The notes below the pieces were generated by a model. That model was not told where the DNA came from. It searched no databases and worked only from the letters and a program-made list of their open reading frames with translations. The translations under genes and the position numbers were made by a program. Source: Cyanobium usitatum str. Tous (GTDB taxonomy: Bacteria > Cyanobacteriota > Cyanobacteriia > PCC-6307 > Cyanobiaceae). Taken from it: a stretch of DNA of 64,000 bases. The DNA lies in the NCBI RefSeq assembly GCF_963920485.1, contig NZ_OY986431.1, forward strand, positions 372,001 through 436,000. Direction: 5' to 3'. Positions 31,130 through 63,061 of this stretch are shown here, piece by piece (the stretch's first letter is position 1; the number at the start of each line of letters is the position of its first letter).

Positions 31130-31303
31130 TCGTGGGGTTCTGCGCGATGTCACCTTGTCACCTGCGGATTCGTGGTATCCGATGCTAGCGTCTTGACCAT
31201 AGGGATCAAAGCGCCTAAAATTGAATCGTGAAAATACGAATTCAAATAACCAATGAGCACACTACGGTGACTTTCAGGAAAGTTGTCACTCCTGGGCTGC
31301 CAC

Positions 31304-32511
31304 TCAGGCCGCCTCAATCAATGGTAACTCCAAGGGCAGTTCGTGCTCTTCTGTTGGCTTGTTTATCCACACTTCTGCCGGCTGACTCCAGCAGCGGGTG
31401 GCACCGCTCCAGCGCGTTGGATTGGCCTGACGGGCGGCCTCGTAGACCTCGGCTCGCTGCTGGCAAATTGCCGCGGCGGATCCACTGTGGCGCTGGTGGG
31501 GCGTCACGAATTTGATCGCGCTGTGGTGGTGCCGGTGGTTGTACCAATCCACAAATGCCGCCACCCACTCGCAGGCCTCCTCTTTGTTGGCGAATGGCCG
31601 GCTGGGGTAGTCGGGGCGGTATTTGATCGTACGGAAAAGGGATTCCGAGTACGGGTTGTCGTTGGAGACCCTTGGCCGGGAGAAGGATCTGAGCACGCCC
31701 ATCTCCTCGAGCCGTGATTCCAGCGTGGCCCCACGCATTGCATTGCCGTTGTCGGCGTGGAGTATTAGGGGCTGCTGCTGGCACTGGCGGCTGCCAAAGC
31801 CGCTGGGGCGGTGGTAGCGCTCCTTGAGGCAGGCCCGCTGCACCAGATCCGCTGCGATCTGAGCCGACTCCACCTCGGCCACATTGCCCGGTGTCAACTA
31901 CATAGGCAACGCGCCCGCCTACCTAATTGTCGCCGTGCAGCCACATCCCAGGCCACCACTTTGCGGCTCCAGACATCGACCACCAGATAGAGGTACAGCC
32001 ACACACCCCGCACCGTGGTCGGCAGGAAGCTGATGTCCCAGCTCCACACCTGGTTCGGGCCATCCGCCCTGAGGCGCGGCACCGAGCGCGGCTCCTGCGG
32101 CAGCCGGGCCCGCCCGCGGCGGTGGCACTGACCCGCCTGGTGCAGCACCCGATAGAAGCTGCTCTCTGAACCAATAAAGAGCTTTTGATCGGCCAGTGCC
32201 GGCACGATCTGCCCTGGCGGCAGCGCGGCGTACTCCGGCTGGTTGCAGGTCAACAGGATCCGCTGGCGCTCTTCCTCGCTCAGCCGGTGTCCTACCAGGC
32301 GAGCACTGCCTTTACGGCGATCCACGCCGTCCCCATCACCTATCAAAGCCTTCCTCCAGCGTTTGAGGGTGCGCAGGCAGATGCCGATCACACCGCAGGC
32401 CCTCACCAGGCCAGCGCCCGCAGCATTGGCCTCGCCAATCAGCTCGATCACCTTCCGCCGGTGCAAGGCACTGGTCAGCCTTCCGCGTCCTCCGAACAGA
32501 AGGCATCCCAC
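31304..32511 (-). pseudogene. IS3-type transposase orfB, broken by a 62-bp insertion
   Basis: Encodes the DDE integrase-fold transposase. Two open pieces (32511-31894 and 31897-31304) match orfB of copy 2. The first contains [12 protein letters not shown] with the first catalytic Asp, the second [11 protein letters not shown] and [12 protein letters not shown] with the other acidic residues. The break lies within WDVAEVE. The A-tract at the orfA/orfB junction here has seven A instead of six, which also spoils the normal frameshift. Confidence 0.85.
31883..31944. repeat. 57-bp insertion with 5-bp flanking duplication inside IS copy 1
   Basis: Compared with copy 2, 62 extra bases are present; GCCAC occurs just before (31878-31882) and at the end (31940-31944), as a target duplication would. 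The 57 bases between contain TAGGC-N9-GCCTA but no clear terminal inverted repeats and no gene. Confidence 0.6.
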
Positions 32512-32644
32512 TTTTTTTGCAGCACCAGCAAAGCCGCCATTTCCGCCATGGCCTTCTCCTTGCGCTGCAACTCCTTTCTGAGGGCCTTGATCTCCCGCTG
32601 GTCCTGGGCGCGGAGCTTCTCGAGCTCCTTCTGTTCGGCCATCG

Positions 32645-32980
32645 TCAGCACCGGCTTGGCGTTGGCATCCTGGGCGGCCTGCCGCCAGCGCTCACCTGCT
32701 CCGGGAACAGGCCCCGCTCGCGGCAGTAGGCGCTGAGCTCGGCGGCATTGAGCCCGGCGCTCTCCAGCACCACCGTGAACTTGTCGGCAGCGCTCCAGCC
32801 CTCTGGTTCCTTCTCGGATGCCGGCACCACCTCTCCCTGCAACCGCCAGGCCTTTCTCCAGTTGTAGAGGGTGGCGACGTGGATGCCCAGCTCTTCTGAA
32901 ATCCGGGTCACGCTCTGCCTGTGGGGCGGGTGCATCCGTCTCCTCACATCAGCCTTAACGGCCTCGCTGTAACGACGCAT
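32645..32980 (-). pseudogene. IS3-type orfA with a 1-base deletion
   Basis: Begins MRRYSEAVKADVRRRMHPPHR and carries the helix-turn-helix (ARISEELGIHVATLYNWRK type) that binds the IS ends. After FPEQV the frame is lost because copy 1 reads CGCTCACCTG where copy 2 has CGCTCCACCTG. A functional orfA or orfAB product is therefore not expected from this copy. Confidence 0.85.
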
Positions 32981-33051
32981 TGGTCATGCCCTCAAGCCCC
33001 CGGATGGATGGATCAAAGGGGTGACATCTTTACTGAAACCGGGGGGGCCGG

Positions 33052-35524: not shown

Positions 35525-36538
35525 CTAAAACTCATGATCGGCATGCCGCCTATTCGATAACGTTTGGCTTGGCATTTCAAAAAATTCTTGCTTGTAATAT
35601 CGCGCGAAGTGGGAACGGCCTACAAACCCGAAATGGGAAGCTGTATCTGAGACACTACGGATATTATTCTCGATGCAAAATTCAATATTCATCAAAGCAT
35701 GCCTAACTTGATGCAGTCGAACTGATCTAACAACCTGAAGAGGAGACATTTTAAATTTTTCCTTACAGCCATTGAATACAGACGTCCGAGACTGATGCAG
35801 CAATGAACACAAATCCTGTATTTCAAATGGCTTTGTGGGCGATGAACTCGTCAAAGCCAAAACCTGCAGTGCAGCCTCATGACGGTCGCATCTATCAATA
35901 GAAACACCCAACTTTCGATCATCGGGACTAATAAAACACTCAATCAGGGCTGATAATATTTCATCCTCAACAAACGCTGGAGACAAAACAAGTGAAGGCA
36001 GATTTGACCACAATTGACTCAAGTATAAAATCAGACCATAAGGCACGTTACTGCTAGACAAAATATTGAATTTATTCAATATATCCTGGACATTGTTAGC
36101 ACTATATTCAGACAACTTGGCCATCAGAAAAAGCTCAGGAATGATAATTGAGCAGAAACGACAACCAGTACTGAGTTGCAAATCAAGATCTTTTAGTTCT
36201 TTGTTAAAGCCAAAAATTGCCGGTCTAGCAATAGTGACACCTTGAGCCATAACATTGTCGCGAGAGGGGTCATCCGACAAATTGACCGAAAAATGGTATT
36301 TTCCGGCCTTTCTATCAGCATAAAAAACCACCTTTTTATTCAACTCAATCAGAACCAATCTAAGATTGGGTAAGGGAAGTATCTGAACAGTCCCTTCAAT
36401 GGGACCATTTTCAAGGGAGAGAACAGACGAGCCAATGAATTGCCTATTCAACATAGCTGCCATATCAACAGTACTTTTTATCTCAAATCGCAGATGAGAA
36501 TACAAATAAACATGCCAATATATTTTCAATAATAGCAT
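35525..36538 (-). CDS. AraC-family transcriptional regulator
   Basis: 337 residues. The C-terminal ~100 residues hold two helix-turn-helix units (LCSLLHQSRTSVFNGCKEKFKMSP and NNIRSVSDTASHFGFVGRSHFARYYKQEF), the AraC DNA-binding domain. The N-terminal part is a ligand or dimer domain without a named match. The start is uncertain; MAAMLNRQF about 75 bases downstream is possible. A copy of the 18-bp motif shared with the pilin-like genes lies just upstream (36564-36581), suggesting autoregulation. AT-rich. Confidence 0.8.
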   Translation of the reverse strand: MLLLKIYWHVYLYSHLRFEIKSTVDMAAMLNRQFIGSSVLSLENGPIEGTVQILPLPNLRLVLIELNKKVVFYADRKAGKYHFSVNLSDDPSRDNVMAQGVTIARPAIFGFNKELKDLDLQLSTGCRFCSIIIPELFLMAKLSEYSANNVQDILNKFNILSSSNVPYGLILYLSQLWSNLPSLVLSPAFVEDEILSALIECFISPDDRKLGVSIDRCDRHEAALQVLALTSSSPTKPFEIQDLCSLLHQSRTSVFNGCKEKFKMSPLQVVRSVRLHQVRHALMNIEFCIENNIRSVSDTASHFGFVGRSHFARYYKQEFFEMPSQTLSNRRHADHEF

Positions 36539-36563
36539 GCAGAAAAGGCATATGTTGGAGTCA

Positions 36564-36581
36564 ATGAGCCCATTTGTTCAC
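36564..36581. promoter_or_regulatory. 18-bp motif upstream of the AraC gene (inverted copy)
   Basis: Reads, on the minus strand, GTGAACAAATGGGCTCAT, 17 of 18 bases identical to the copy at 38979-38996. It lies 26 bases before the AraC start. Candidate AraC binding site. Confidence 0.6.
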
Positions 36582-36700
36582 GATATGGACCATGGATTCC
36601 GTGTAAAAACCCAACCACATCAAGCGCAAATTCAAGTGGGCTTCTGATCCACCCAATTACAGAAGGAAGAAATGGAGCTATTCCTATTTAAATCGCAAAA

Positions 36701-37225
36701 TCAATTATCGGACAAAAGGATGCTCTTCACCTTAGTAAGCAATACAGCAAGTTCTTCATCAGACAAAAGACCCTCTTCATGCAAGAGTTGAGCTAATTCA
36801 ATCTTTTTAGAGACAATAGAAATTGCATACGCTTGATCACAGTTCCTAGAATTCTTAGTGCCAAATGGAACAGTCAAAACTGCGCCGAAAGCATAACCGT
36901 TGCCATTACCAGAATATCCACTGATAAGCTCATTTTTCTCAATCTCGTCTACACGCTCAGATAAGCCACTAAAGAAATTCATCGTAGTAGGTGTTCCATC
37001 CTGACTTACGCAGCGAGTACCATCAGGTAAATCAACCTCAAATCGAGGACCAACTGGTTGCTGAAAGGACAACCCCGCTAGATCACGTAAGGGAAGATTA
37101 TCTAACGGCTCGATCGTACTTTGCGCATACGCAGAATACGTTGATAGCAAGAGCGCGTTAAGACAGTTAATTGCGAAGAAGAACTTGAAACTTTTCCTTT
37201 TGGACTTTCCATAATGCAAATCCAT
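36701..37225 (-). CDS. exported protein of the pilin-like cassette
   Basis: 174 residues. Basic N-terminus plus hydrophobic core (FKFFFAINCLNALLLSTYSAYAQS) make a signal peptide. The mature part contains two Cys (GTRCVSQ and RNCDQAY), a Gly/Asn-rich loop (SGYSGNGNGYAFGAV) and a C-terminal helix (LAQLLHEEGLLSDEELAVLL) like a short oligomerisation segment. Not recognised. Its 5' end overlaps the chaperone-like frame by 124 bases, so both belong to one transcript. Confidence 0.6.
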   Translation of the reverse strand: MDLHYGKSKRKSFKFFFAINCLNALLLSTYSAYAQSTIEPLDNLPLRDLAGLSFQQPVGPRFEVDLPDGTRCVSQDGTPTTMNFFSGLSERVDEIEKNELISGYSGNGNGYAFGAVLTVPFGTKNSRNCDQAYAISIVSKKIELAQLLHEEGLLSDEELAVLLTKVKSILLSDN

Positions 37226-37509
37226 AATGGGCCAGCCTTAAGAGTGGATGTTGAAATACTTAAAAGAACACGTTTTGCCTTGCTATCTCGCAAGAATAGT
37301 TCTCTTGGACTAACACGAACACCTTCAATTTTTTCACCCGGAACGTTGCCTTTTGCATTGTAAAAAGCGTCAACTAAATACTGGCCAGGTTTGGAATCAA
37401 CCAGAAAAGCCTGAGTACGTACAACAACGCGGGAACCAAGGCCAGGTGAAATCACCTTATTGTTTGGATTGAGTCCTAATGCGGCTGCAAGGAGAAAAGA
37501 GGTAATCAT
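37102..37509 (-). CDS. truncated pilus-chaperone-like protein
   Basis: 135 residues. Residues about 25-95 resemble the N-terminal immunoglobulin-like domain of periplasmic fimbrial chaperones: a strand with GQYLVDAFYNAKG, then the VSPRELFLRDSKAKRVLLSIS block, which corresponds to the conserved SPxxxxLxPGxxQxVR segment. The second domain is missing and the last ~40 residues overlap the next gene in another frame. Either a one-domain relative or a frame-shifted remnant. Confidence 0.45.
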   Translation of the reverse strand: MITSFLLAAALGLNPNNKVISPGLGSRVVVRTQAFLVDSKPGQYLVDAFYNAKGNVPGEKIEGVRVSPRELFLRDSKAKRVLLSISTSTLKAGPLWICIMESPKGKVSSSSSQLTVLTRSCYQRILRMRKVRSSR

Positions 37510-37628
37510 TTAATAGCGAGATAGATGATTGACGAAGAAATTAAGGGTCGCCACGAGCCCCCCAGAACAGAACAAATAGGAAAAATGAGTGATTGATAAG
37601 CCGATTAATAGGCAATAATGTATCATCA

Positions 37629-38192
37629 CTATGGTTCCAAACAGGTGAGGACAACCTGAAAGCGATATTCATCATTTGGGAACGAATTACTTAAATTGGC
37701 GCTGACAGTTAATTTGACACCATAGGGAAGACCAGACACATAGCCGTTACTTCTGAGATCAGATGGCTGCAATATCGTAGAGACCGGTGAATTTGAATAT
37801 GAACTTGACGTTTTGGACTTTATATACCGATTTGTGCTATCTGAACGAATCCAAATACCACGGAAGCTGATACCACTTGGCGCTAGAAGCGTATTCAAAC
37901 TAACATTTATACGTGGTACTTGATTGGAGGATATCAGTAATGATTCACTGGTACCTAACATGATTCCAGTACTCCCACTACGCGTATAATCCATCGAAAC
38001 AAGATCGCTACCACCGGAGAATGAACAAGTGAAAGGCACCGTGGCGTTGAAAGTCGTAGTATTTTGAATACTTGCTTGTGCAAAGCGAGGGGTAAAAAAT
38101 AGTGAGGCGCAAACCAGGCATAAAAAAGCTGAATGCACTACATGCAAACCAGTGATAGATGAAAATGGTTTAAGGGAATTAACTTGCATCAA
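37629..38192 (-). CDS. secreted pilin-like (spore-coat-U-like) protein
   Basis: 187 residues with a signal peptide (VVHSAFLCLVCASLFFTPRFAQA). The mature start TTTFNATVPFTCSFSGG matches the TTFTGTVPGSCTY start of the protein at 38355-38828, and both end in a YxxxVVLT strand. Two Cys residues (FTCSF, LTCLEP) are placed to form the disulfide typical of chaperone-usher pilins and SCPU proteins. Membership in that class is inferred from pattern only. Confidence 0.6.
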   Translation of the reverse strand: MMQVNSLKPFSSITGLHVVHSAFLCLVCASLFFTPRFAQASIQNTTTFNATVPFTCSFSGGSDLVSMDYTRSGSTGIMLGTSESLLISSNQVPRINVSLNTLLAPSGISFRGIWIRSDSTNRYIKSKTSSSYSNSPVSTILQPSDLRSNGYVSGLPYGVKLTVSANLSNSFPNDEYRFQVVLTCLEP

Positions 38193-38354
38193 GAGACGAC
38201 TTAGACCAAAAACTTATAAAGTCATAAACAAATCAAATGACTGACGCTTGAGCCAAAAAGAAACTGAAGCCCTTGCATCCAAAGGCTTCAGTTTCATCGC
38301 AATACTTTTACTAGATTGACAAAAGCATTGGAGAATTTCTAACGGCTAGACTTA

Positions 38355-38828
38355 TCAAGAGAGCGTTGTCAAGACAACGGTATAGCTGTAAGCACCAACT
38401 ACGCTTGCACCAGTAGAAGTGAGCTCGATCGTGACATTTTCTGTTGCTCCATTGGTATTATCCAAGCTCACCGTGGAAGAAGCACCTTCACCGCTGGTGG
38501 CAAGCGTGGAACTACCCTTCTTCAGTGTGGCTGTATTCGTTGTTGTTGTTGGATTACTTCCAGCAGTGACTGCACCAAGAGAAACAGAAGCGGCAAAATT
38601 GCAATTAATTCCAATATTTGCCGATACGCCGGTAAATGTTCCTTCGTCATCGGCCGAATAAGACATTGCGACCGTTTGAGAGGTCCCTGACGCATAGGTG
38701 CATGAACCAGGAACTGTTCCTGTGAACGTTGTTGTGTCCGTAATGTCCGCGAGCGCAGCCGCTGGCATTAATCCAAGGCCAATCGCTTGTACAGCGACTA
38801 AAGAAAGACAAAGACGTTTGAAGTTCAT
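38355..38828 (-). CDS. secreted pilin-like protein
   Basis: 157 residues from the ATG at 38828. Signal peptide MNFKRLCLSLVAVQAIGLGL...AALA. The mature protein starts ITDTTTFTGTVPGSCTYASG, has a second Cys (GINCNFAAS), is rich in Ser/Thr/Ala/Gly and ends YSYTVVLTTLS, as expected for an Ig-like pilin fold built of beta strands. The low Lys/Arg content suits a surface protein. The 18-bp motif sits about 150 bases upstream. Confidence 0.65.
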   Translation of the reverse strand: MNFKRLCLSLVAVQAIGLGLMPAAALADITDTTTFTGTVPGSCTYASGTSQTVAMSYSADDEGTFTGVSANIGINCNFAASVSLGAVTAGSNPTTTTNTATLKKGSSTLATSGEGASSTVSLDNTNGATENVTIELTSTGASVVGAYSYTVVLTTLS

Positions 38829-38978
38829 TTGAAGAATTGAAGAATCAATCTCCTCAATTTTGACATCCTTAGAAGCGAATGAGAGTGATCTGAGAGCCAG
38901 TTGAGTGCAATCAAGAGGCAGTGGGATCAAGTGACTAAACAAACAGAAGCTCAATAAGGATGATTGCGGCGCAACCCA

Positions 38979-39035
38979 GTGAACAAATGGGCTCACTTAA
39001 CATCTGAGTCCACGGGCGCGAACAAATGGGCTCAC
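38979..39035. promoter_or_regulatory. two direct copies of the 18-bp cassette motif
   Basis: GTGAACAAATGGGCTCAC at 38979-38996 and GCGAACAAATGGGCTCAC at 39018-39035, 39 bases apart start to start. With the inverted copy at 36564-36581 these are the only occurrences I found. They lie between the leftward pilin gene and the rightward pilin-like remnant. Paired direct sites suit an AraC-family activator. Confidence 0.65.
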
Positions 39036-39627: not shown

Positions 39628-39849
39628 ATGAGCTTCTCTGCTAACCCCACAGAAAGTTTTGACGTGATCGTCGTGGGGGGTGGTCATGCCGGTTGTGAGG
39701 CTGCGATCACGGCTGCTCGTTTGGGGCTGAAGACCGCCGTGTTTACCCTCAATCTCGACCGAATCGCCTGGCAGCCCTGCAATCCCGCCGTTGGTGGACC
39801 GGCCAAAAGCCAGCTTGTCCATGATGTGGATGCTCTCGGCGGCGGTGAC
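39628..39849 (+). pseudogene. mnmG: tRNA uridine modification enzyme MnmG (GidA), 3'-truncated by IS copy 2
   Basis: About 72 residues remain: [16 protein letters not shown] (FAD-binding GxGxxG), [32 protein letters not shown] and [10 protein letters not shown], the MnmG N-terminus. Reading then runs straight into IS copy 2 and stops by chance. Intact MnmG is ~640 residues. dnaB and mnmG are commonly neighbours in picocyanobacteria, so the two fragments come from one locus. The 257 bases before it hold no gene I can support. Confidence 0.88.
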
Positions 39850-39881
39850 TTTCAGGAAAGTTGTCACTCCTGGGCTGCCAC

Positions 39882-41033
39882 TCAGGCCGCCTCAATCAAT
39901 GGTAACTCCAAGGGCAGTTCGTGCTCTTCTGTTGGCTTGTTTATCCACACTTCTGCCGGCTGACTCCAGCAGCGGGTGGCACCGCTCCAGCGCGTTGGAT
40001 TGGCCTGACGGGCGGCCTCGTAGACCTCGGCTCGCTGCTGGCAAATTGCCGCGGCGGATCCACTGTGGCGCTGGTGGGGCGTCACGAATTTGATCGCGCT
40101 GTGGTGGTGCCGGTGGTTGTACCAATCCACAAATGCCGCCACCCACTCGCAGGCCTCCTCTTTGTTGGCGAATGGCCGGCTGGGGTAGTCGGGGCGGTAT
40201 TTGATCGTACGGAAAAGGGATTCCGAGTACGGGTTGTCGTTGGAGACCCTTGGCCGGGAGAAGGATCTGAGCACGCCCATCTCCTCGAGCCGTGATTCCA
40301 GCGTGGCCCCACGCATTGCATTGCCGTTGTCGGCGTGGAGTATTAGGGGCTGCTGCTGGCACTGGCGGCTGCCAAAGCCGCTGGGGCGGTGGTAGCGCTC
40401 CTTGAGGCAGGCCCGCTGCACCAGATCAGCCGCGATGTCAGCCGACTCCACCTCGGCCACATCCCAGGCCACCACTTTGCGGCTCCAGACATCGACCACC
40501 AGATAGAGGTACAGCCACACACCCCGCACCGTGGTCGGCAGGAAGCTGATGTCCCAGCTCCACACCTGGTTGGGGCGATCCGCCCTGAGACGCGGCACCG
40601 AGCGCGGTTCCTGCGGCAGCCGTGCACGCCCGCGGCGGTTGCACTGCCCCGCCTGGTGCAGGACCCGATAGAAGCTTGATTCAGAGCCGATAAAGAGGCC
40701 CTGATCGGCCAGCGCCGGCACGATCTGTCCCGGCGGCAGTGAGGCGTACTCGGGCTGGTTGCACGTCAGCAGTATCCGCTGTCGTTCCTCCTCGCTCAGG
40801 CGGTGACCCACCAGGCGGTCACTGCCTTTACGGCGATCCACGCCGTCCCCATCACCACCAAAGGCCTTGCGCCAGCGTTTGAGGGTGCGCAGAGAGATCC
40901 CGATCTCGCAGCAGGCAGGCACCAGAGCCGCGCCAGCGGCATTTGCCTCCCTGATCAGCTCGATCGCCTTCTGCCGGTGCGCGGCACTGGTCAGCCTTCC
41001 GCGTCCTCCGAACAGAAGGCTTCCCACTTTTTT
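39882..41033 (-). CDS. IS3-family transposase, orfB part (made by -1 frameshift)
   Basis: About 380 residues if read from the A6G slip site. HTH region ([14 protein letters not shown]), then the DDE domain: [10 protein letters not shown] (Asp 1), [11 protein letters not shown] (Asp 2) and [13 protein letters not shown] (Glu), spaced as in IS3 elements, and a C-terminal [19 protein letters not shown] block. In IS3 elements the active transposase is the fused OrfAB. All parts are intact, so this copy may still move. Confidence 0.9.
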
Positions 41034-41497
41034 CGCAGCACCAGCAAGGCCGCCATTTCCGCCATGGCCTTCTCCTTGCGCTGCAGCTCCTTCTTGAGAG
41101 CCTTGATCTCCCTCTGGTCCTGGGCGCGGAGCTTCTCGAGCTCCTTCTGCTCGGCCATGGTCAGCACCGGCTTGGCGTTGGCATCCTGGGCGGCCTGCCG
41201 CCACCGCTCCACCTGCTCAGGAAACAACCCTCGCTCCCGGCAGTAGCCGCTGAGTTCGGTGGCATTCAGGCCAGCGCTCTCCAGCACCAACGTGAATTTG
41301 TCGGCAGCGCTCCAGCCCTCTGGTTCCTTCTCGGAAGCCGGCACCACCTCTCCCTGTAACCGCCAGGTCTTTCTCCAGTTGTAGAGGGTCACCACGTGAA
41401 TGCCCAGCTCTTCTGAAATCCGGGCCACGCTCTGGCGGTGCGGCGGGCTCATCCGCCTTCTCACATCAGCCTTGACGGCCTCGCTGTAACGACGCAT
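40991..41497 (-). CDS. IS3-family orfA, helix-turn-helix protein
   Basis: 168 residues. Begins MRRYSEAVKADVRRRMSPPHR; HTH at about residues 25-45 (ARISEELGIHVVTLYNWRK) and a Leu-zipper-like coiled coil near residues 115-150 (KELEKLRAQDQREIKALKKEL). It binds the IS ends and, alone, usually represses transposition. It contains the A6G slip near its 3' end, where part of the ribosomes change to the orfB frame. Confidence 0.9.
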   Translation of the reverse strand: MRRYSEAVKADVRRRMSPPHRQSVARISEELGIHVVTLYNWRKTWRLQGEVVPASEKEPEGWSAADKFTLVLESAGLNATELSGYCRERGLFPEQVERWRQAAQDANAKPVLTMAEQKELEKLRAQDQREIKALKKELQRKEKAMAEMAALLVLRKKWEAFCSEDAEG

Positions 41498-41555
41498 TGG
41501 TCATGTCCTCAAGCCCCCGGATGTACGAATGAGAGGGGTGACAACTTTCCTGAAA

Positions 41556-41821
41556 CCGGGGGGTTTTAGACCACTAAACTTGCACCCCAGTGTTTTCCCG
41601 TATTCCAAGAGATTTGCTTGTGCTTGGGCACCAAATGACATTCTTGTCGCCCGCATAGTCTCTCTTGGTGCACTGTTATCCGAAATACTCTCAGATTGCA
41701 TTGACTTAATTTCTTCGCTAATTGATGCAATGCCTTTGTTGATCTGCGTACATGTCTGGGCATGTACAGGAGTGCTAAACAAACCTGCTGCCGCAAGCGA
41801 GACTAAGATGAATTTGCTCAT
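41556..41821 (-). pseudogene. small exported protein, 3'-truncated by IS copy 2
   Basis: About 85 residues remain. Signal peptide MSKFILVSLAAAGLFSTPVHA, cleavage likely after VHA, then QTCTQINKGIASISEEIKSM and GAQAQANLLEYGKTLGCKFSG, with two Cys. At the IS border the frame runs into IS sequence (PGFRKVVTPL). No family recognised. Its missing end should lie on the far side of the insertion; the base run just left of IS copy 1 would give a short in-frame tail, but that is speculative. Confidence 0.7.
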
Positions 41822-41946
41822 TGGGAATATATAATTGATTTATCATAGACCACGGGGTCTCCATGGCAATAATTGTGACTGGTTAGTTAGCAACATTGAT
41901 GGGTTGCATCCCGCCCATTATCCCCTGCTGGACAGGTTTTTGCCCG

Positions 41947-41965
41947 TTATGCGGTTCTCGCATAG
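41947..41965. promoter_or_regulatory. island palindrome, copy 1
   Basis: TTATGCGGTTCTCGCATAG: half-sites TATGC and GCATA around 7 bases, containing TGC-N7-GCA (a T-N11-A LysR-type box). Lies in the 235-base spacer between the leftward genes starting at 41821 and ending at 42057; no other gene is convincing there. Confidence 0.6.
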
Positions 41966-42056
41966 TCCTGGGTGGATGCCTGTGGGACTGCGATGAGCAG
42001 ACGCTTCCGCTTTCGTGGCGACGAACCCCACCAGACCCCTTTCATACTCCAATCGT

Positions 42057-42551
42057 TTAATTGCTAGAACCCCAAACTGTTGTGTCAACCGTAAGAACAT
42101 TTCTTCCAGTATCTATTGTGCCGTCTGAAAATTCGGCAGGTTTTATTCTGCCAGTAATAATTCTATAAACACCTATAGATTTTAAGTATTCGCCTAAATC
42201 CTTTTTGTTAGCAGCGGATAAATTGATCCACTCACTTTCTGGAATTAGAAGAGTTTTCGTGCTGCCCCAGTAGGTTGGAAACTCTTTTTTTAACACCTTA
42301 TCCCCGTTCATAGCGTATCCTGCGGCAACCCAGCAAAGGTCTAATTCTTCACAGGTTTTATCTTTTAATTGGTTAAAAACGGTTTCTCCCTTCTCGTAAT
42401 TAGGTTCTTCAATTACAATACTTTTTTCCTCTTCCTTGTTTTCAACATTCTCTTGGCGGGACTTGTCACCATTCAAGGTTTCTAAAATTTGTGGCAAAAA
42501 ACTTACAACACCCACAAAGACAAGAAGGATGAGTAGAGTGCGTTTAAACAT
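42057..42551 (-). CDS. membrane-anchored or exported hypothetical protein
   Basis: 164 residues. N-terminal hydrophobic segment (TLLILLVFVGVVSFLPQIL) without a clear cleavage site, then an acidic/Lys-rich linker (ENVENKEEEKSIVIEEPN) and a domain with two Cys (KTCEELDLCWVAAGYAM). The anchor plus linker suggests a periplasmic domain tethered to the inner membrane. AT-rich, unlike the chromosome. Not recognised. Confidence 0.6.
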   Translation of the reverse strand: MFKRTLLILLVFVGVVSFLPQILETLNGDKSRQENVENKEEEKSIVIEEPNYEKGETVFNQLKDKTCEELDLCWVAAGYAMNGDKVLKKEFPTYWGSTKTLLIPESEWINLSAANKKDLGEYLKSIGVYRIITGRIKPAEFSDGTIDTGRNVLTVDTTVWGSSN

Positions 42552-42885
42552 TTTTTATTATCGCAAAGGAGAGCGATGGTTTTTCTTTGCCCAGCATAGA
42601 TCAAATCGTCTCATTGGATCTTATGCTGATTTAGTCCAGTGAAAACATTGGAAGCATGACAGGTTGCTGGAAGTGTTGGGACGTCACCAAAACCCTCCTA
42701 ACTGCTTCATCATCACCACCCAATGGGAAAGCAGGTGCGCTTCGGGTGTGGTGAAGGTCGCTGAGTCGGTCACTCGGTCTTGTCACTTCCGACCATTCTC
42801 GCCTGCCGGACTGGGTTTTGCCTCTTATGCAGTGGGCGCATAGAACCCTCAGGATTTACGATGGACGCTTGCCCAACCGTCACAT
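42552..42885. other. 334-base spacer with one island palindrome
   Basis: No gene I can support. Contains the palindrome at 42825-42843, 43 bases upstream of the Cys-rich gene starting at 42886. The longer frame across 42818-43174 is rejected as a shadow of that gene. Confidence 0.5.
42825..42843. promoter_or_regulatory. island palindrome, copy 2
   Basis: TTATGCAGTGGGCGCATAG, same spacing as the other three copies. It lies 43 bases before the start of the small Cys-rich gene at 42886. Confidence 0.6.
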
Positions 42886-43038
42886 ATGGCGTCACCTGCT
42901 CCTCGCTGCATCAACTGCCAGAACTTCAACGGGTGCCAGGGATGTAATGGCGTCTGCAGGGTTTGGCAAGTCGTGTTGCCTGCTCAGGTGGCGTCAAGTA
43001 ATCGTTGTGAGCACTGGACGGCACCATCGGTTCGGTAG
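42886..43038 (+). CDS. very small Cys-rich protein
   Basis: 50 residues from the ATG at 42886. It contains CINCQNFNGCQGCNGVC, that is C-x2-C-x5-C-x2-C-x3-C, then a late Cys; such spacing could bind zinc or an iron-sulfur cluster, or form disulfides. The CxxCQxF block recurs in the protein at 46935-47222 (CITCQHF). Too short for a normal gene finder. The island palindrome lies directly upstream. Function unknown. Confidence 0.5.
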   Translation: MASPAPRCINCQNFNGCQGCNGVCRVWQVVLPAQVASSNRCEHWTAPSVR

Positions 43039-43170
43039 CGGTGCAACGGTTGCGCCTCTACCTCTTGGAATGCCATCGCATTGGCACAGGAGCAGAGGGT
43101 TCCATCATCACTCCATCCACCACTTCAAGAACTTTGCGAAGGGGGTGTGGAAAGGCATAGGTGAGGTTGC

Positions 43171-43527
43171 TTAGTTCTTGGGTTTGCCTTCCAGGCATAG
43201 GAATTGACGATTGCTACGGGGTGATGCAAATACTGGGTATTCGTTGTTTGGATTAAAACTATTTTTCCAAATATTTCCTTGCGTTTCGCATTGTTCCATA
43301 GATTGCATCTCAATCTCTTCTATGCTTTGACTGGTGTTGCTGAAGGCATTTATAAGGATTAACCAATAACCTGGTTTAGGTGTGGCGATTGGAGAAGAAG
43401 ATTTAGTCGGTAATATCCCTGAGGCGGATTGAGAGTAAGAAGGGAATGGGTTATTAAAATAAGCGAGAATGCTGCATAGCATTGCAACTTCAACAGCAGT
43501 TTTTATGCGTTTAGATAGTTTCTTCAT
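43171..43527 (-). CDS. exported hypothetical protein, tandem paralogue B
   Basis: 118 residues from the ATG at 43527. MKKLSKRIKTAVEVAMLCSILAY is a signal peptide-like start. Conserved with its neighbour: KPGYWLILINAFSNT, MEQCETQGNIWKNSF and SNRQFLCLEG. The two Cys probably pair outside the cytosol. The start overlaps the stop of paralogue A (ATGA), so translation is coupled. Not recognised. Confidence 0.65.
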   Translation of the reverse strand: MKKLSKRIKTAVEVAMLCSILAYFNNPFPSYSQSASGILPTKSSSPIATPKPGYWLILINAFSNTSQSIEEIEMQSMEQCETQGNIWKNSFNPNNEYPVFASPRSNRQFLCLEGKPKN

Positions 43528-43874
43528 TTCCCCTCCAGGCAAATAAACTGACGCTGACTGCGAGTTGAGCGAAATAATGGAGTGTATGTTTGATTTTTTG
43601 GGTCAAAACTATCTTTCCAAATATTTCCCTGTGCTTCGCACTGTTCCATTGGCTCCATCGGGATTTTATGCAAACTATGACCAAGATTGCTGAAAGCATT
43701 TATAAGAATTAACCAATAAACTGGTTTAGGTGTATTGGTTGGAGGAGAGGTTGTTGGAACTATTCTGGAGGTAGATTGAGAATAAGAAGGAGATGTAACA
43801 CTATGATGCACGAGAATGCCGCCTAGGATTGTAACTGCGATAGCGGTTTTAAAATGTTTAGATAGTTTTTTCAT
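43524..43874 (-). CDS. exported hypothetical protein, tandem paralogue A
   Basis: 116 residues, MKKLSKHFKTAIAVTILGGILV..., clearly homologous to paralogue B: KPVYWLILINAFSNL, MEQCEAQGNIWKDSF and SQRQFICLEGK. The N-terminal signal-like segment is followed by a Ser/Thr/Pro linker, suggesting export or membrane attachment. Coupled by ATGA to the genes on both sides, making a three-gene unit. Confidence 0.65.
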   Translation of the reverse strand: MKKLSKHFKTAIAVTILGGILVHHSVTSPSYSQSTSRIVPTTSPPTNTPKPVYWLILINAFSNLGHSLHKIPMEPMEQCEAQGNIWKDSFDPKNQTYTPLFRSTRSQRQFICLEGK

Positions 43875-44083
43875 TGGTTTAAGTCCAAACTGAATATCTC
43901 CATTTTATCTCCTTCGGGTTCTAACCATTCCGAAAACTCTTGAGCGATGGCAAGGATGTCTTTCTCATCCAGCAACCCATCAATAATTCGTGAAATGCTC
44001 CAATCCACGATTTGAGCAACAATCTCTTCCGTTGTGGGAGGGGTTTGCTTCCATTTCTTGCTTGAGTAGGGAATATCCATCAT
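43871..44083 (-). CDS. small acidic cytosolic hypothetical protein
   Basis: 70 residues, net acidic, helical (TEEIVAQIVDWSISRIIDGLLDEKDILAIAQEFSEWLEPEGDK). No signal or membrane segment. First gene of the coupled unit 44083-43171; its stop overlaps the paralogue A start. Could be a regulator or partner of the exported pair, but nothing in the sequence proves it. Confidence 0.55.
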   Translation of the reverse strand: MMDIPYSSKKWKQTPPTTEEIVAQIVDWSISRIIDGLLDEKDILAIAQEFSEWLEPEGDKMEIFSLDLNQ

Positions 44084-44244
44084 TCAAGCAGCAAGTTCAG
44101 CAGGATTTGGAGACCGTCTCAAGATTCTGGTGATTTGCACTGGGTTGAAGGCACTTCCGTTAGGGGTCTTAATACCTGAATCGTTCATCACCCCCAAATC
44201 TCCCTCAAGGTCTTGCCTTTCTTACTTTCTCCCCGCACCTTCTA

Positions 44245-44409
44245 CTAATTCTTCCAGATCCGTTCCAGTGATTTGCGGAACTCCCCACCGCTTTGTGGTC
44301 GTGCCAGGTCACGCTTCCAAAAGACGCTGCCGATCCACCACACCTGAAGACCGCCAAAGACCAGGGCGACAAGACCCAGTTGGATGTATCCCCAGTTCAG
44401 GTGCTCCAT
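44245..44409 (-). CDS. small single-pass membrane protein
   Basis: 54 residues from the ATG at 44409. Hydrophobic segment WGYIQLGLVALVFGGLQVWWIG, then a basic cytosolic-like tail (KRDLARPQSGGEFRKSLERIW). Its start shares one base with the stop of the zinc-finger-like gene (TAATG), so the two are translationally coupled. Confidence 0.6.
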   Translation of the reverse strand: MEHLNWGYIQLGLVALVFGGLQVWWIGSVFWKRDLARPQSGGEFRKSLERIWKN

Positions 44410-44807
44410 TACGCCTGCTGCTGTGCCTTCTGACATCGCTTTGTTTGCTGGTGCTGCTTAAATGCCCACTGGTTGCCCTTCACGACCATTCCGCAGTGCT
44501 CACAGGTCGTTGTTGGCACTTCTTTTATCCAGGTGGCGGGGCGCTCACCCACCAGTTCCCGCCTTGATGGGTCAATGCCCCTTCCGCACTGGTAGCGGGT
44601 CAGGGCAGGAGCAGTGGTTACGAATCCCGTTTTCAGGCAACGGAACAGCAGGGTCTGCCCCCGAAGGTTCTGGAGTTTGCGGGAAGGAGTGGTCAATTCC
44701 TCGTCTCTGTTCTTGTGCCCACTCTGCTTCTTTCTCCTCGGGATGCGCTGCTCGTGATAGTCAAGCACCTTCTCTTTTGTCCTCGCTTGTTCGCTCTTGC
44801 CGACCAT
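44409..44807 (-). CDS. basic protein with C2HC zinc-finger-like C-terminus
   Basis: 132 residues. Strongly basic N-terminal half (KSEQARTKEKVLDYHEQRIPRRKKQSGH), then CEHCGMVVKGNQWAFKQH-x5-C, a C-x2-C-x13-H-x5-C arrangement typical of a nucleic-acid-binding zinc finger. The island palindrome at 44817-44835 lies 10 bases before its start, so the divergent LysR regulator probably controls it. Coupled to the membrane protein downstream. Confidence 0.55.
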   Translation of the reverse strand: MVGKSEQARTKEKVLDYHEQRIPRRKKQSGHKNRDEELTTPSRKLQNLRGQTLLFRCLKTGFVTTAPALTRYQCGRGIDPSRRELVGERPATWIKEVPTTTCEHCGMVVKGNQWAFKQHQQTKRCQKAQQQA

Positions 44808-44816
44808 AGTACTTAA

Positions 44817-44835
44817 TTATGCGATATCTGCATAG
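44817..44835. promoter_or_regulatory. island palindrome, copy 3
   Basis: TTATGCGATATCTGCATAG, 10 bases upstream of the leftward gene at 44807. Close enough to the start to block transcription or initiation if bound. Confidence 0.6.
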
Positions 44836-44862
44836 TCCGCCGACGCCGCGCCCGCTTCTTCT

Positions 44863-44881
44863 TTATGCGTTTTTCGTATAG
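44863..44881. promoter_or_regulatory. island palindrome, copy 4
   Basis: TTATGCGTTTTTCGTATAG; one half-site deviates (GTATAG). Copy 3 starts 46 bases to the left. It lies 55 bases before the LysR start and is followed by a G-rich run (44896-44932) that includes the ribosome-binding site. Confidence 0.6.
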
Positions 44882-44935: not shown

Positions 44936-45805
44936 ATGGTTGTATCCATAGACTCCCTCTCTTGCTTGGATTGCCTGATTTGGTTGCGGTCAGGTGCTGC
45001 TGCCGCCGAACGTCTTGGTCTCACCCAACCCACCGTTTCTCGCAATGTTTCTCGGGTTTCAGAGGTCTTTGGGGTTCAACTTGTTAAACCTAATGGCGAA
45101 TGGGGGTTGATAGGAGATACTACTCTTCTTAATATGGAGAGAACTGTTCATCAGCGGTATCGCTGGTTTCGTGATCTTCCATTGAGAATTGAGGCACAGT
45201 ATTATTCGGGTCCTTTGTTCTGCGACGGTCTGCTGAGTGGTTGGCATCCTGGCAACTTTGACTTTTTAGAGGTTCATACACCTCTACAGCATTTGCGCGA
45301 AGGAGTGATAGATGCTTGGATAGGTTCCTATCCAGATATCCCTGATGATGATAATGATTTTGCTTGCTTCCATCTGACTCGTCTGCCTACTTTCTTAGTT
45401 GTTGCTGAAGGGCACCCTTTGCTTGCATTGGGAAATCGCATCACCTTGGAAGATGTTAAGAGGTATCCATCCCTGGCACTTCCGGACAATTCCTTCCCGA
45501 AGGTTCAGAAAATCCTCCAGGAACTAGGTCTTTGGAGTCTCCCTCTGAATATTCAGCGGTATAATGGTAATTGGCAGGATAAAACACCTGAAAAACTTGC
45601 CGTTGGGTACGCTACTTCTCTCACCCTTCATCTCTTTAAATCACCTCAGGTTTTGCTCCCGATCCAGATCTCTCTTGAGGTTGGAGATACATTGATTGTT
45701 CGCCGTGAATACGCAGACCATCCGCGCCTGATGGAACTCCTAGAGCATCTTAAGTGCAAGGTGCTTGAACTATCGCAAAAGTTTGCTGATATCCGTATCC
45801 CTTAA
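44936..45805 (+). CDS. LysR-family transcriptional regulator
   Basis: 289 residues. N-terminal winged helix-turn-helix, residues about 8-60 (IWLRSGAAAAERLGLTQPTVSRNVSRVSEVFG), and an effector-binding domain beyond residue 85 (VHTPLQHLREGVIDAWIGSYPD; TRLPTFLVVAEGHPL). It is somewhat divergent in the linker. LysR proteins typically bind T-N11-A boxes and regulate a divergent gene plus themselves; two such boxes lie in the 128-base divergent region here. AT-rich in line with the island. Confidence 0.82.
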   Translation: MVVSIDSLSCLDCLIWLRSGAAAAERLGLTQPTVSRNVSRVSEVFGVQLVKPNGEWGLIGDTTLLNMERTVHQRYRWFRDLPLRIEAQYYSGPLFCDGLLSGWHPGNFDFLEVHTPLQHLREGVIDAWIGSYPDIPDDDNDFACFHLTRLPTFLVVAEGHPLLALGNRITLEDVKRYPSLALPDNSFPKVQKILQELGLWSLPLNIQRYNGNWQDKTPEKLAVGYATSLTLHLFKSPQVLLPIQISLEVGDTLIVRREYADHPRLMELLEHLKCKVLELSQKFADIRIP

Positions 45806-46934: not shown

Positions 46935-47222
46935 ATGTGTATCTGCTCTTGTGCGATGCCTGCTGCCCTTCCCGCCCCTTCTGCGACCCCCGCTGAAGAA
47001 TGGGAGTTCCTTGAGTGGAATGTCCTCAAACCATCCCGCTCCTCAAGCGTCTGCATCACCTGCCAGCACTTCCGCTACGAGGTCGGCAGGCATTGCGTCA
47101 CCCTGCTCACCTGTCCGATTCACCAGGGTCTGATTCCTCAAGGGGAGCACCTGACCAAGCGGTGTTCTCAATGGGTTGCACGGCAGGAACTCAAGCGGGG
47201 GTGGTGTCCTGAAGGTGGGTGA
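46935..47222 (+). CDS. small Cys-rich protein
   Basis: 95 residues (an ATG at 46956 would give 88). The middle part reads SVCITCQHFRYEVGRHCVTLLTCPIHQGLIPQGEHLTKRC in outline: C-x2-C-x9-C-x5-C-x2-H and a later Cys, a plausible zinc site. It shares CxxCQxF with the 50-residue protein at 42886. It is the last island gene before attR. The next 200 bases (47223-47422) hold no gene and must contain the new promoter of DUF1825. Confidence 0.55.
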   Translation: MCICSCAMPAALPAPSATPAEEWEFLEWNVLKPSRSSSVCITCQHFRYEVGRHCVTLLTCPIHQGLIPQGEHLTKRCSQWVARQELKRGWCPEGG

Positions 47223-61334: not shown

Positions 61335-62459
61335 TCATGCAGCCATGGCAAACGTAGCTGGTCTTGGGTCGATTTCCGGTTGTGGAGGATTGATCCAAAC
61401 CACCTCCGGCTGACGCCAGCAACGCGTTGATCGTGACCAGCGACGTGGATTTTGCTGGCGTGCCTGTTCATAGACGTGAGCACGATGGCGGCAAATGGCA
61501 ACGGCTTGACCGCTATGGCGCTGCTGGGGTGTCACGAACTTGATCCCGCTATGGCGGTGCCGGTGGTTGTACCAGTCCACAAAAGACGCCACCCACAGGC
61601 ATGCCTCTTCCACGCTGGCGAATGGCCGCCTTGGGTAATCGGGCCGGTATTTTGCTGTTCGGAACAGCGCTTCCGAGTAGGGGTTGTCGTTGCTAACCCT
61701 TGGTCTAGAGAAGGACCGCAGCACCCCCAGCTCTTCCAGGCGGCTTTCCAGCGTGGCGGCACGCATTGAGTTGCCGTTATCGGCGTGGAGGGTCAACGGT
61801 ATCTGGCGCCCCTTGCTGATCCGCTCGCGCAGGCAGGCTCTGCTCACCAGATCGGCTGCAATGGCTGGGTCTTCTCGCTCAGCGACATCCCAGGCCACCA
61901 CCTTCCTGCTCCAGACGTCGATCACCAGATAGAGATAGAGCCACACGCCACGCACTGTTGTTGGCAGGTAGGTGATGTCCCAGCTCCACACCTGATTTGG
62001 CCCTGCGGCCCGCAGGCGTGGCACTGGCCTCGGCTCCTGTGGTGGTCGGGCGCGACCACGGCGATTCGCCTGGCCATGGGCGTGCAACACCCGGTAGAAG
62101 CTGCGCTCTGAGCCAATGAACAGGCCCCGGTCCGCAAGGATCGGCACGATTTGCCCGGGGGGCAGCGCAGCGAATTCCGGCTCGTTGCAGGTGAGCAGAA
62201 TGCGCTGGCGCTCTTCTTCACTGAGGCGGTGTGACACATTGCGTTGACTGCCTTTGCGGCAATCCACACCGCCGCCATCACCGGCAAACTGGCGTCGCCA
62301 TCGCTGCAGCGTGGTGAGGCCAATACCCAACAGCAGGGCCAGTTGTCTGGCACGAGCACCAGCGGCAAGCCCCTCATCCATGATCTGCAAAGCCTTCTGG
62401 CGGTCTTCGGGCGAGGTCAGTCGTCCGCGTCCTCTCCCCAGAAGGCCTGGATCTTTTTT
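61335..62459 (-). CDS. IS3-family transposase, orfB part
   Basis: About 374 residues if read from the slip site; an internal ATG at 62390 gives 351. HTH-like GIGLTTLQRWRRQF, then VWSWDITYLP, LTLHADNGNSM and [13 protein letters not shown] with the three catalytic acidic residues. Open throughout, so probably active as OrfAB. Confidence 0.9.
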   Translation of the reverse strand, partial: KKDPGLLGRGRGRLTSPEDRQKALQIMDEGLAAGARARQLALLLGIGLTTLQRWRRQFAGDGGGVDCRKGSQRNVSHRLSEEERQRILLTCNEPEFAALPPGQIVPILADRGLFIGSERSFYRVLHAHGQANRRGRARPPQEPRPVPRLRAAGPNQVWSWDITYLPTTVRGVWLYLYLVIDVWSRKVVAWDVAEREDPAIAADLVSRACLRERISKGRQIPLTLHADNGNSMRAATLESRLEELGVLRSFSRPRVSNDNPYSEALFRTAKYRPDYPRRPFASVEEACLWVASFVDWYNHRHRHSGIKFVTPQQRHSGQAVAICRHRAHVYEQARQQNPRRWSRSTRCWRQPEVVWINPPQPEIDPRPATFAMAA

Positions 62460-62923
62460 GCTGCCAACAGCAGTGCCGCTGCTTCTGCCAGTGCCTTCTC
62501 CTTACGGCGCAGCTCTTGTTTGAGCTGTTTGATTTCACGCTGGTCCTGCTGATGGCGTCGGTCTAGATCCTTCTGCTCTGTCAAGGTGAGCACTGGCTTT
62601 TCGTTGGCATCCTGGGATGCCTGGCGCCACCTTTCCACCTGCTCCGGGTACAAACCCCGTTCACGGCAGTAGGCAGCCAGCTCGGTGCCATTAAGCCCAG
62701 CAGTCTCGAGCACCACCGTGAACTTGTCGGTGGAGCCCCAGCCCTCAGGATCCTTCTGGCTGGCGGGAACCACCTCTCCCTGCAAACGCCAAGATTTTCG
62801 CCAGCTGTAGAGGGTCATCACATGGATGCCCAGCTCTTTTGAAATCCTGGCCACGCTTTGCCTTTGAGGTGGGCTCATTCGCCTTCTCACATCAGCTCTA
62901 ACAGCCTCGCTGTAACGACGCAT
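62417..62923 (-). CDS. IS3-family orfA
   Basis: 168 residues, MRRYSEAVRADVRRRMSPPQR, HTH ARISKELGIHVMTLYSWRK, and a coiled coil (LDRRHQQDQREIKQLKQELRRKEK). The same length as orfA of copy 2. Contains the A6G motif near its 3' end for the -1 frameshift into orfB. Confidence 0.9.
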   Translation of the reverse strand: MRRYSEAVRADVRRRMSPPQRQSVARISKELGIHVMTLYSWRKSWRLQGEVVPASQKDPEGWGSTDKFTVVLETAGLNGTELAAYCRERGLYPEQVERWRQASQDANEKPVLTLTEQKDLDRRHQQDQREIKQLKQELRRKEKALAEAAALLLAAKKIQAFWGEDADD

Positions 62924-63061
62924 TGAATTTCTCCATCAAGCCCCCTGGTGATCGAAATGGAGAGGCGTCAACTTTCCTGGCAGAGGGGGATACGGAGGAC
63001 TTATCTGTGGTCTATCTGGGAGGTAGCAACTGCCAAGCGGGCACGGGCACTGATTCGCCCC

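Follow-up and report, generated by a model that had tools for sequence, protein, structure and literature searches.

Which protein reads a short palindrome that recurs four times with identical spacing in a genomic island of the picocyanobacterium Cyanobium usitatum str. Tous, and which genes does this palindrome serve? The stretch analysed here, called the window, comprises 64,000 nucleotides (nt) of contig NZ_OY986431.1 (positions 372,001 to 436,000), and an exact pattern scan of these 64 kb places TTATGCR-N6-GYATAG at 41947, 42825, 44817 and 44863, all on the plus strand, with two copies directly before a lysR gene of the island. We consider it probable that the sites are operators of a mobile family of LysR-type regulators, and that relatives of the island protein together with a second, divergent LysR-like type (type B) control anti-phage defence operons in picocyanobacteria. 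The gene and the four sites are as follows.

44936..45805, + strand: LysR-type regulator of 289 amino acids (aa), by PF00126, PF03466 and predicted fold
44817..44835, + strand: distal candidate operator before lysR, TTATGCGATATCTGCATAG, 100 nt from its end to the ATG
44863..44881, + strand: proximal candidate operator before lysR, TTATGCGTTTTTCGTATAG, 54 nt from its end to the ATG
42825..42843, + strand: candidate operator TTATGCAGTGGGCGCATAG between an hsdM relic (− strand) and a Cys-rich open reading frame (ORF; + strand)
41947..41965, + strand: candidate operator TTATGCGGTTCTCGCATAG in a second, shorter hsdM-promoter relic

The palindromes and the LysR-type protein of the island

The common spacing at four positions, pointed out in a preliminary description of this DNA, was confirmed by exact scans of the window and of the whole genome (G000, one contig of 2,656,680 bases), which contains the four window sites only and no match to a reversed control pattern; each of 100 dinucleotide shuffles of the window likewise gave 0 matches. 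The count inside versus outside the island, proposed there as a check, thus stands at four exact sites against none, and the many ordinary chromosomal copies named as contrary evidence did not appear. The sites are intergenic in that all four lie outside the ORFs judged to be genes, a judgement since short overlapping ORFs are also listed. The positions given for them are also right: 44817 and 44863 lie in the divergent region between the ORF 44409-44807 (− strand) and lysR (+ strand), 42825 ends 42 nt before the ATG of a 50-aa Cys-rich ORF, and 41947 lies in a spacer flanked by the − strand ORFs 41501-41821 and 42057-42551. The sites at 41947 and 42825 are not independent, as they have homologous left flanks in common.

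Confinement to the island holds for exact copies and fails for copies with one or two mismatches. A consensus that fits the relatives better is YTATGCR-N5-YGCATAG, from which site 44863 deviates at one position, and with two mismatches allowed the own genome yields 29 strand-wise matches against 10 for the control (several being one place counted on both strands), indicating that weaker sites exist outside the island. Sites with one mismatch occur there at C1:441207 and C1:2507450 (L169, L170); both are flanked by related DNA (89% over 309 bp, L008 versus L009) and may form a separate repeat family, and C1:2507450 precedes a secreted-protein-like gene which by eye resembles genes near sites in L091 and L122. 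An intact hsdM-like gene (locus L279, G000 C1:1114303-1124000) has a further copy, CTATGCAGCCGGTTCATAG, about 0.5 kb upstream, with two mismatches to the 19-mer and one to its core TATGCR-N5-YGCATA; the island LysR protein might act on this gene in trans. The own genome has two HsdM_N matches, one of them at C1:1114840.

By its domains and modelled fold, the product of 44936 is a LysR-type regulator. Its N-terminal LysR winged helix-turn-helix scores 34.3 bits with PF00126 (cut-off 26.6, E 2.2e-8) and its substrate-binding domain 40.4 bits with PF03466 (cut-off 28, E 2.8e-10). The AlphaFold2 model built from an alignment of 17 sequences has a pLDDT of 92.1, and the best 50 Foldseek matches listed for it are all LysR-type (TM about 0.4-0.6), among them 2esn, which carries the title 'probable transcriptional regulator' only; full-length OxyR is matched with E 3.2e-15 and TM 0.60. 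The gene also has the arrangement typical of this class, a divergent promoter with T-N11-A palindromes (44817, 44863). The nearest solved chain by sequence, using the family profile, is NtcB (8h3v, E 5.5e-10). NtcB, one of the LysR-type activators of cyanobacteria, serves nitrate assimilation, a role different from that suggested by the defence-gene neighbours in several loci described below. Its site, which we take to be TGCA-N5-TGCA, would match the core of the palindrome; this motif was not found in a literature search.

Comparison with relatives supports the original reading of the palindrome as a LysR-type site, because the same palindrome precedes the lysR genes of relatives with 63-77% identity, lying 69-100 nt before the start of homology in two copies in genomes G126 and G195 and in one copy in G214. 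With at most one mismatch, TATGCR-N5-YGCATA is found upstream of lysR in the window, G195 and G126 (two each) as well as in G214 and G304 (one each), and the paired sites are spaced, start to start, by 46 bp in the window and by 31 bp in both G195 and G126. A gene-first test was applied, in which the palindrome was sought within 450 nt upstream at one mismatch or fewer and compared with 59 other arrangements of the arm letters. For lysR (30 loci fetched, L078 omitted from the count), it gave 5/29, while the scrambled arms averaged 0.10 and reached at most 3/29 (ATTGC); two-mismatch copies are present upstream in L069, L070, L071, L072, L074, L075, L086 and L087. Relatives in 13 loci of named records include those of Cyanobium sp. 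T1B-Tous (76%), a Synechococcaceae metagenome-assembled genome (62%), an uncultured cyanobacterium (58%), Cyanobium sp. FGCU6 (52%) and Cyanobium usitatum str. Tous (48%). Within 300 nt upstream, three of these 13 carry the palindrome at one mismatch or fewer (L281, L286, L288) and three at two mismatches (L285, L292, L293); since L281 and L286 are apparently the same records as L060 and L085, the clearest addition is L288 from Synechococcus sp. CS-1330, TTATGCAGTTTCTGCATAA. Across the family, relatives of the island LysR protein occur in 81 of 400 genomes (E 1e-25). In viral contigs, a search for LysR relatives that catches close ones only gave 34 pattern matches, none of them to a relative.

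The same palindrome before defence operons

The exact pattern has 67 matches in 47 of the 400 genomes of the family, against 13 for the reversed control. All 63 matches outside the own genome were fetched, with ORFs chosen greedily and named by profile search, and 28 of them adjoin a LysR relative or a recognised defence gene. For loci first named from similarity, a further check confirmed BrxA, HsdM and DruE. The loci concerned are these.

L039, L041, L042, L043, L092, L107: sites beside HsdM of type I restriction-modification (RM)
L047, L050, L054, L093, L099, L123: sites beside BREX genes
L051, L102, L104, L114, L120: sites beside DrmD (DISARM)
L057, L117: sites beside HmaA
L095, L096: sites beside DruE-like genes (Druantia-like)
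L094: site beside AbiEi (AbiE)
L044, L053, L100, L116, L119, L125: sites beside a LysR relative

With a profile made from relatives of the window protein only and disregarding the sites, a strong LysR ORF lies within 300 nt of the site in 6/63 and a weak one in two more, while the A4 profile gave no LysR match in 40 random loci of 6 kb. For 40 random places in 13 single-contig genomes, DrmD, BREX, Druantia and type I methylase were absent from the 78 nearest ORFs among the 25 of 70 PADLOC families listed (25 of 105 for the site set), a listing from which one control defence match could escape; the families listed comprised mad2 (two members) and single RTasHel, GajB (UvrD-like), mad3 and GlgB. 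These 240,040 random bases contained no palindrome at one mismatch or fewer.

Starting from the genes rather than from the sites leads to the same operons. BrxA was found in 32/400 genomes, and of its 37 listed matches 30 were tested; 13 of these 30 loci have the site upstream, 12 of them at the nearly constant distance of 190-193 nt before the domain start, and further out it is found at 958-963 nt in L210, L211 and L213 and at 1,035 nt in L215. For drmD (41/390 genomes; 30 of 53 listed matches tested) the site is upstream in 9/30 loci, and for HsdM_N (129/400 genomes; 30 of the best-scoring matches tested) in 3/30, at 377-436 nt. Ahead of many brxA and drmD genes, and of one group of hsdM genes, its position hardly varies. 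The 59 scrambled arms averaged 0.03 loci for brxA, 0.02 for drmD and 0.02 for HsdM_N. In whole DrmD loci the arms TTGCA gave 26 matches, exceeding the 12 of TATGC, with which TGATC was level, an effect that vanishes when upstream regions only are counted. In BREX and DISARM sites the right arm, GCATAG, is better conserved than the left.

Two kinds of site locus have neighbours of other types. One site (L127) lies beside a gene for a 1,288-aa DUF4062-NACHT-TPR protein, weakly Avs-like, which was left out of the 28. In L046 and L109, from two genera, the site lies between a gene for an SbcD-like nuclease, by eye with an AAA/SbcC-like partner, and an uncharacterised gene of 335-364 aa; PADLOC has no model for the nuclease of these loci and Pfam none for the partner gene of L046, and the pair is a candidate for a new defence system.

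Candidate regulators of the site and competing explanations

Presence of the site and presence of the island type of LysR protein (type A) go together. LysR is encoded in 33/47 genomes with a site and in 48/353 others (p 1e-15, kinship ignored). Among genomes with BREX loci, it is found in 16/17 with the site versus 3/13 without (p 9e-5), and within the single genus g6 in 11/11 versus 2/6 (p 0.006); counting sites within 450 nt only, the figures are 12/13 versus 7/17 (p 0.007) and, in g6, 9/9 versus 4/8 (p 0.03).

At other operons a second, LysR-like protein is encoded. The gene for this divergent type B immediately precedes the operator in L051, L095, L096, L102, L104, L107, L114 and L117, which carry DISARM, Druantia-like, Hma or hsdM genes, and also in L049, at a contig end. 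A profile built from most of these nine site loci aligns with type A at a probability of 97.9 (hhalign, E 4.2e-13, 198 columns); the type-B protein L095:2616-3536 has no Pfam or NCBIfam match. Thirty drmD loci divide into seven with the site and type B nearby, two with the site only, two with the regulator only and 19 with neither (p 5e-4; p 0.011 without the three loci that were sources of the profile). Divergently from the type-B gene lies a gene for a protein with a kinase-like AAA_33 N-terminus (L095) and a C-terminal WYL domain (L095, L117), possibly a sensor partner.

L095:307-2475 and L117:769-2937: AAA-WYL genes; by eye also in L096, L102, L104, L107 and L114

Several observations weigh against control by LysR-type proteins. 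The co-occurrence of site and LysR gene, counted here regardless of any tree, is partly shared ancestry. Of the BREX loci, 13 have the site close by, and in none of these does a LysR gene of type A or B lie within about 1.5 kb on either side, so that control there would have to act in trans. Genome G023 has a site-bearing BREX locus and no LysR match at E 1e-25, and in G106, where two sites are linked to Cys-rich ORFs, the LysR relatives have just 48% and 38% identity. At one mismatch, 24/29 upstream regions of lysR lack the site, which means that not every relative uses TATGCR-N5-YGCATA. The type-B structure model is of low confidence (pLDDT 40.5), and one random control locus (L129, in the own genome) has a type-B homologue without a site. 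Support from HsdM is thin in the gene-first test, at 3/30. Finally, the remaining 35/63 outside sites have no assigned neighbour; about 13 chance matches are expected, and some of the 35 adjoin housekeeping genes (matches to psaA/psaB, polysaccharide export and dehydroquinase), where the site is probably due to chance.

The AAA-WYL genes lead to the question of whether the operator belongs instead to a regulator with a WYL domain, like BrxR or CapW, which we think unlikely. According to PMC9122601, BrxR binds inverted repeats upstream of brxR that are 10-11 bp long and separated by a 5-bp spacer, and brxA is preceded by another set. BrxR/CapW resembles the case described here in that a single family of regulators has a palindromic operator, with a 5-bp spacer in both cases, in front of defence systems of unrelated kinds, BREX among them. 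The difference lies in the WYL fold and the length of the repeats, as against a LysR-type protein and half-sites of 6-7 bp with T-N11-A. In L095 and L117 the type-B gene does have a gene for an AAA-WYL protein next to it, and by eye other type-B loci have a similar one. The site, however, stands before lysR genes themselves, and the own genome, with its four sites, has no WYL protein by PF13280 or PADLOC PDLC01652, nor has G126 by PF13280, the one model used there. Five WYL loci of G195 and G303 (L294-L298) have no site at two mismatches or fewer and no LysR-like neighbour; PF13280 missed the AAA-WYL type in these two genomes, and more divergent WYL proteins could hence be missed as well.

The preliminary description had proposed a private regulon, confined to the island and run by its own LysR gene. 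All four exact sites of the genome do lie in the island near lysR, yet we give this restricted scheme little credence, since relatives carry the same operator before BREX, DISARM, type I RM, Hma and Druantia-like operons in many genomes, and those at 41947 and 42825, half of the island's sites, are, judged by DNA identity, relics of an hsdM promoter.

42738..42773, − strand: relic of the first 12 hsdM codons, 11/12 residues as in G195 and G106 (tblastn E 0.3-0.4, a match too short to stand by itself)
41911..41972, + strand: hsdM-promoter repeat around site 41947, 93% identical to G195 over 58 nt and 85% to G357 and G360 over 62 nt

In G195, G106, G357, G360 and G369 an intact hsdM ORF (HsdM by PADLOC/Pfam) starts 51 nt from the site, and window positions 42739-42843 correspond to the hsdM promoter and first 12 codons of the relatives at 86-90% DNA identity, after which homology ends. 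The near-intact counterpart is G195, in which the site is followed by hsdM, hsdS and hsdR (PADLOC Specificity_I, REase_I), with the lysR gene and its two operators 13.7 kb from hsdM, amid transposases. Searching the window by tblastn with these three proteins and two further hsd proteins recovered the 12 hsdM codons (42773-42738) and chance-level matches, a search which a distant hsdM type could escape; a type I RM system with hsdM, hsdS and hsdR was thus not found in the window island. Two matches to the hsdR C-terminus (31 and 42 residues) lie at ends of insertion sequence (IS) copies, at 33050-32958 and 41600-41475; the last 31-42 residues of the G195 hsdR ORF (L039:4023-6752) are IS-end sequence, which points to an IS at its 3' end. 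The island in the window thus looks like the remnant of a decayed restriction island, in which lysR, its operator and the Cys-rich ORF behind site 42825 have been kept.

Copies of a single IS3-like element with a transposase gene lie at 31265-33045, 39835-41562 and about 61390-62990, in and beyond the island, and are also present in the G195 island; rve domains were tested in the copy at 39.9-41.5 kb. A fragment of an MnmG/GidA-like N-terminus (PF01134, 39628-39963) runs into a transposase copy. The left half of the island (35525-38996) contains an AraC-type regulator gene (35525-36538, PF12833) and other ORFs that have no Pfam match and look secreted by eye.

Breaks of homology near the palindrome could also mark a recombination site or a cassette junction of integron or att type. 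Around 42825, G195, G357 and G360 share the left block with the window but differ on the right, and G106 shares the right flank but differs on the left. Genomes G148 (L117) and G082 (L095) are 95% identical over 3,365 bp through the AAA-WYL gene, the type-B gene, the operator and a leader of about 113 bp, past which G148 continues with HmaA and G082 with a DruE-like gene; G369 has just 181-186 bp around the operator and leader in common with these two genomes, and different genes flank this segment on both sides. Such a junction first appeared likely from these homology ends and was set low after the brxA distances and the paired lysR sites had been seen; it is now considered very improbable. 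The distance to brxA is fixed at 190-193 nt in 12 loci, paired copies precede lysR, and homology also breaks off at a distance from the palindrome, ahead of the effector gene; gene exchange on either side of a promoter explains the breaks. As far as these alignments go, the operator and its leader can keep their place when the effector genes behind them are replaced by others. That the palindrome acts as an RNA hairpin or transcription terminator has next to no probability: five to six pairs are possible and the C-to-T change in 44863 retains a G-U pair by eye, but the hairpin loop varies freely, the sites lie upstream of genes, no terminator-like site coincides with them and no Rfam family was found in the window.

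A proposed switch and its meaning

If the sites are LysR operators, dimers of the island protein would bind the palindrome YTATGCR-N5-YGCATAG, which contains the T-N11-A box; from the sequence, position, conservation and co-occurrence of the site, we infer binding as well as the direction and the signal of regulation. The paired sites before lysR are separated by about three turns of the helix (31 bp in G195 and G126, 46 bp in the window), which suggests two dimers acting as a tetramer and hence autoregulation. A single site near the promoter of a defence operon would allow repression or signal-dependent activation, and the direction favoured here would be autorepression combined with signal-dependent control of the defence operon. 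Conservation of GCATAG could reflect overlap with a −10 element; a scan for upstream promoters gave nothing at the sites. In the genome studied here the hsd genes of the island have apparently been lost, and lysR with its operator, two relic promoters and the Cys-rich ORF would be what remains of the circuit.

Small ORFs accompany the sites in the window and in relatives.

42886..43038, + strand: 50-aa Cys-rich ORF; G106 has relatives of it in two places (80%, 92%), each behind the site
44409..44807, − strand: 132-aa ORF pointing away from lysR; related ORFs in G195 and G106 lie 0.8-2.3 kb from the operators there; no family above the curated cut-off
44245..44436, − strand: 63-aa ORF that, by eye, probably encodes a small membrane protein; related ORFs occur in the loci of G195 and G126 and, by eye, next to operators in G257 and G369
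46935..47222, + strand: 95-aa Cys-rich ORF at the island edge; relative across the operator from hsdM in G357 and G360

The 50-aa Cys-rich ORF lies behind the site twice in G106, once without hsdM, which argues that it is a real target.

Other island-borne regulators of defence differ in fold. C proteins of type II RM systems have a Cro-like fold and short C boxes, and so are not LysR-type. They resemble the present case as island-borne regulators that time RM expression (PMC12255303). The repressor of type I RM defence islands described in PMC12255303, RptR, forms a small helical dimer on TAGCTA repeats, being similar in that a small operator is conserved before type I RM operons and the regulator is encoded in the island, and different in its fold and its operator, the consensus here being TATGCR-N5-YGCATA. 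The description of this arrangement as new has stood up so far, as no LysR-type defence operator was found in the open literature, subscription papers lying mostly outside that search.

How bacteria time the expression of costly defence systems is largely an open question, to which BrxR/CapW, RptR and C proteins give answers with other folds. We see an even chance of a picocyanobacterial immune regulon in which BREX, DISARM, type I RM, Hma and Druantia-like systems are all under a LysR family that works in part from a distance, in trans, through one operator that travels with its leader as a plug-in promoter. If this is true, the shared LysR-type operator would be a common, probably metabolite-sensing immunity switch in picocyanobacteria, and searches for new defence genes could start from the site as a simple sequence tag, candidates being the Cys-rich ORFs and the SbcD-like pair of L046 and L109.

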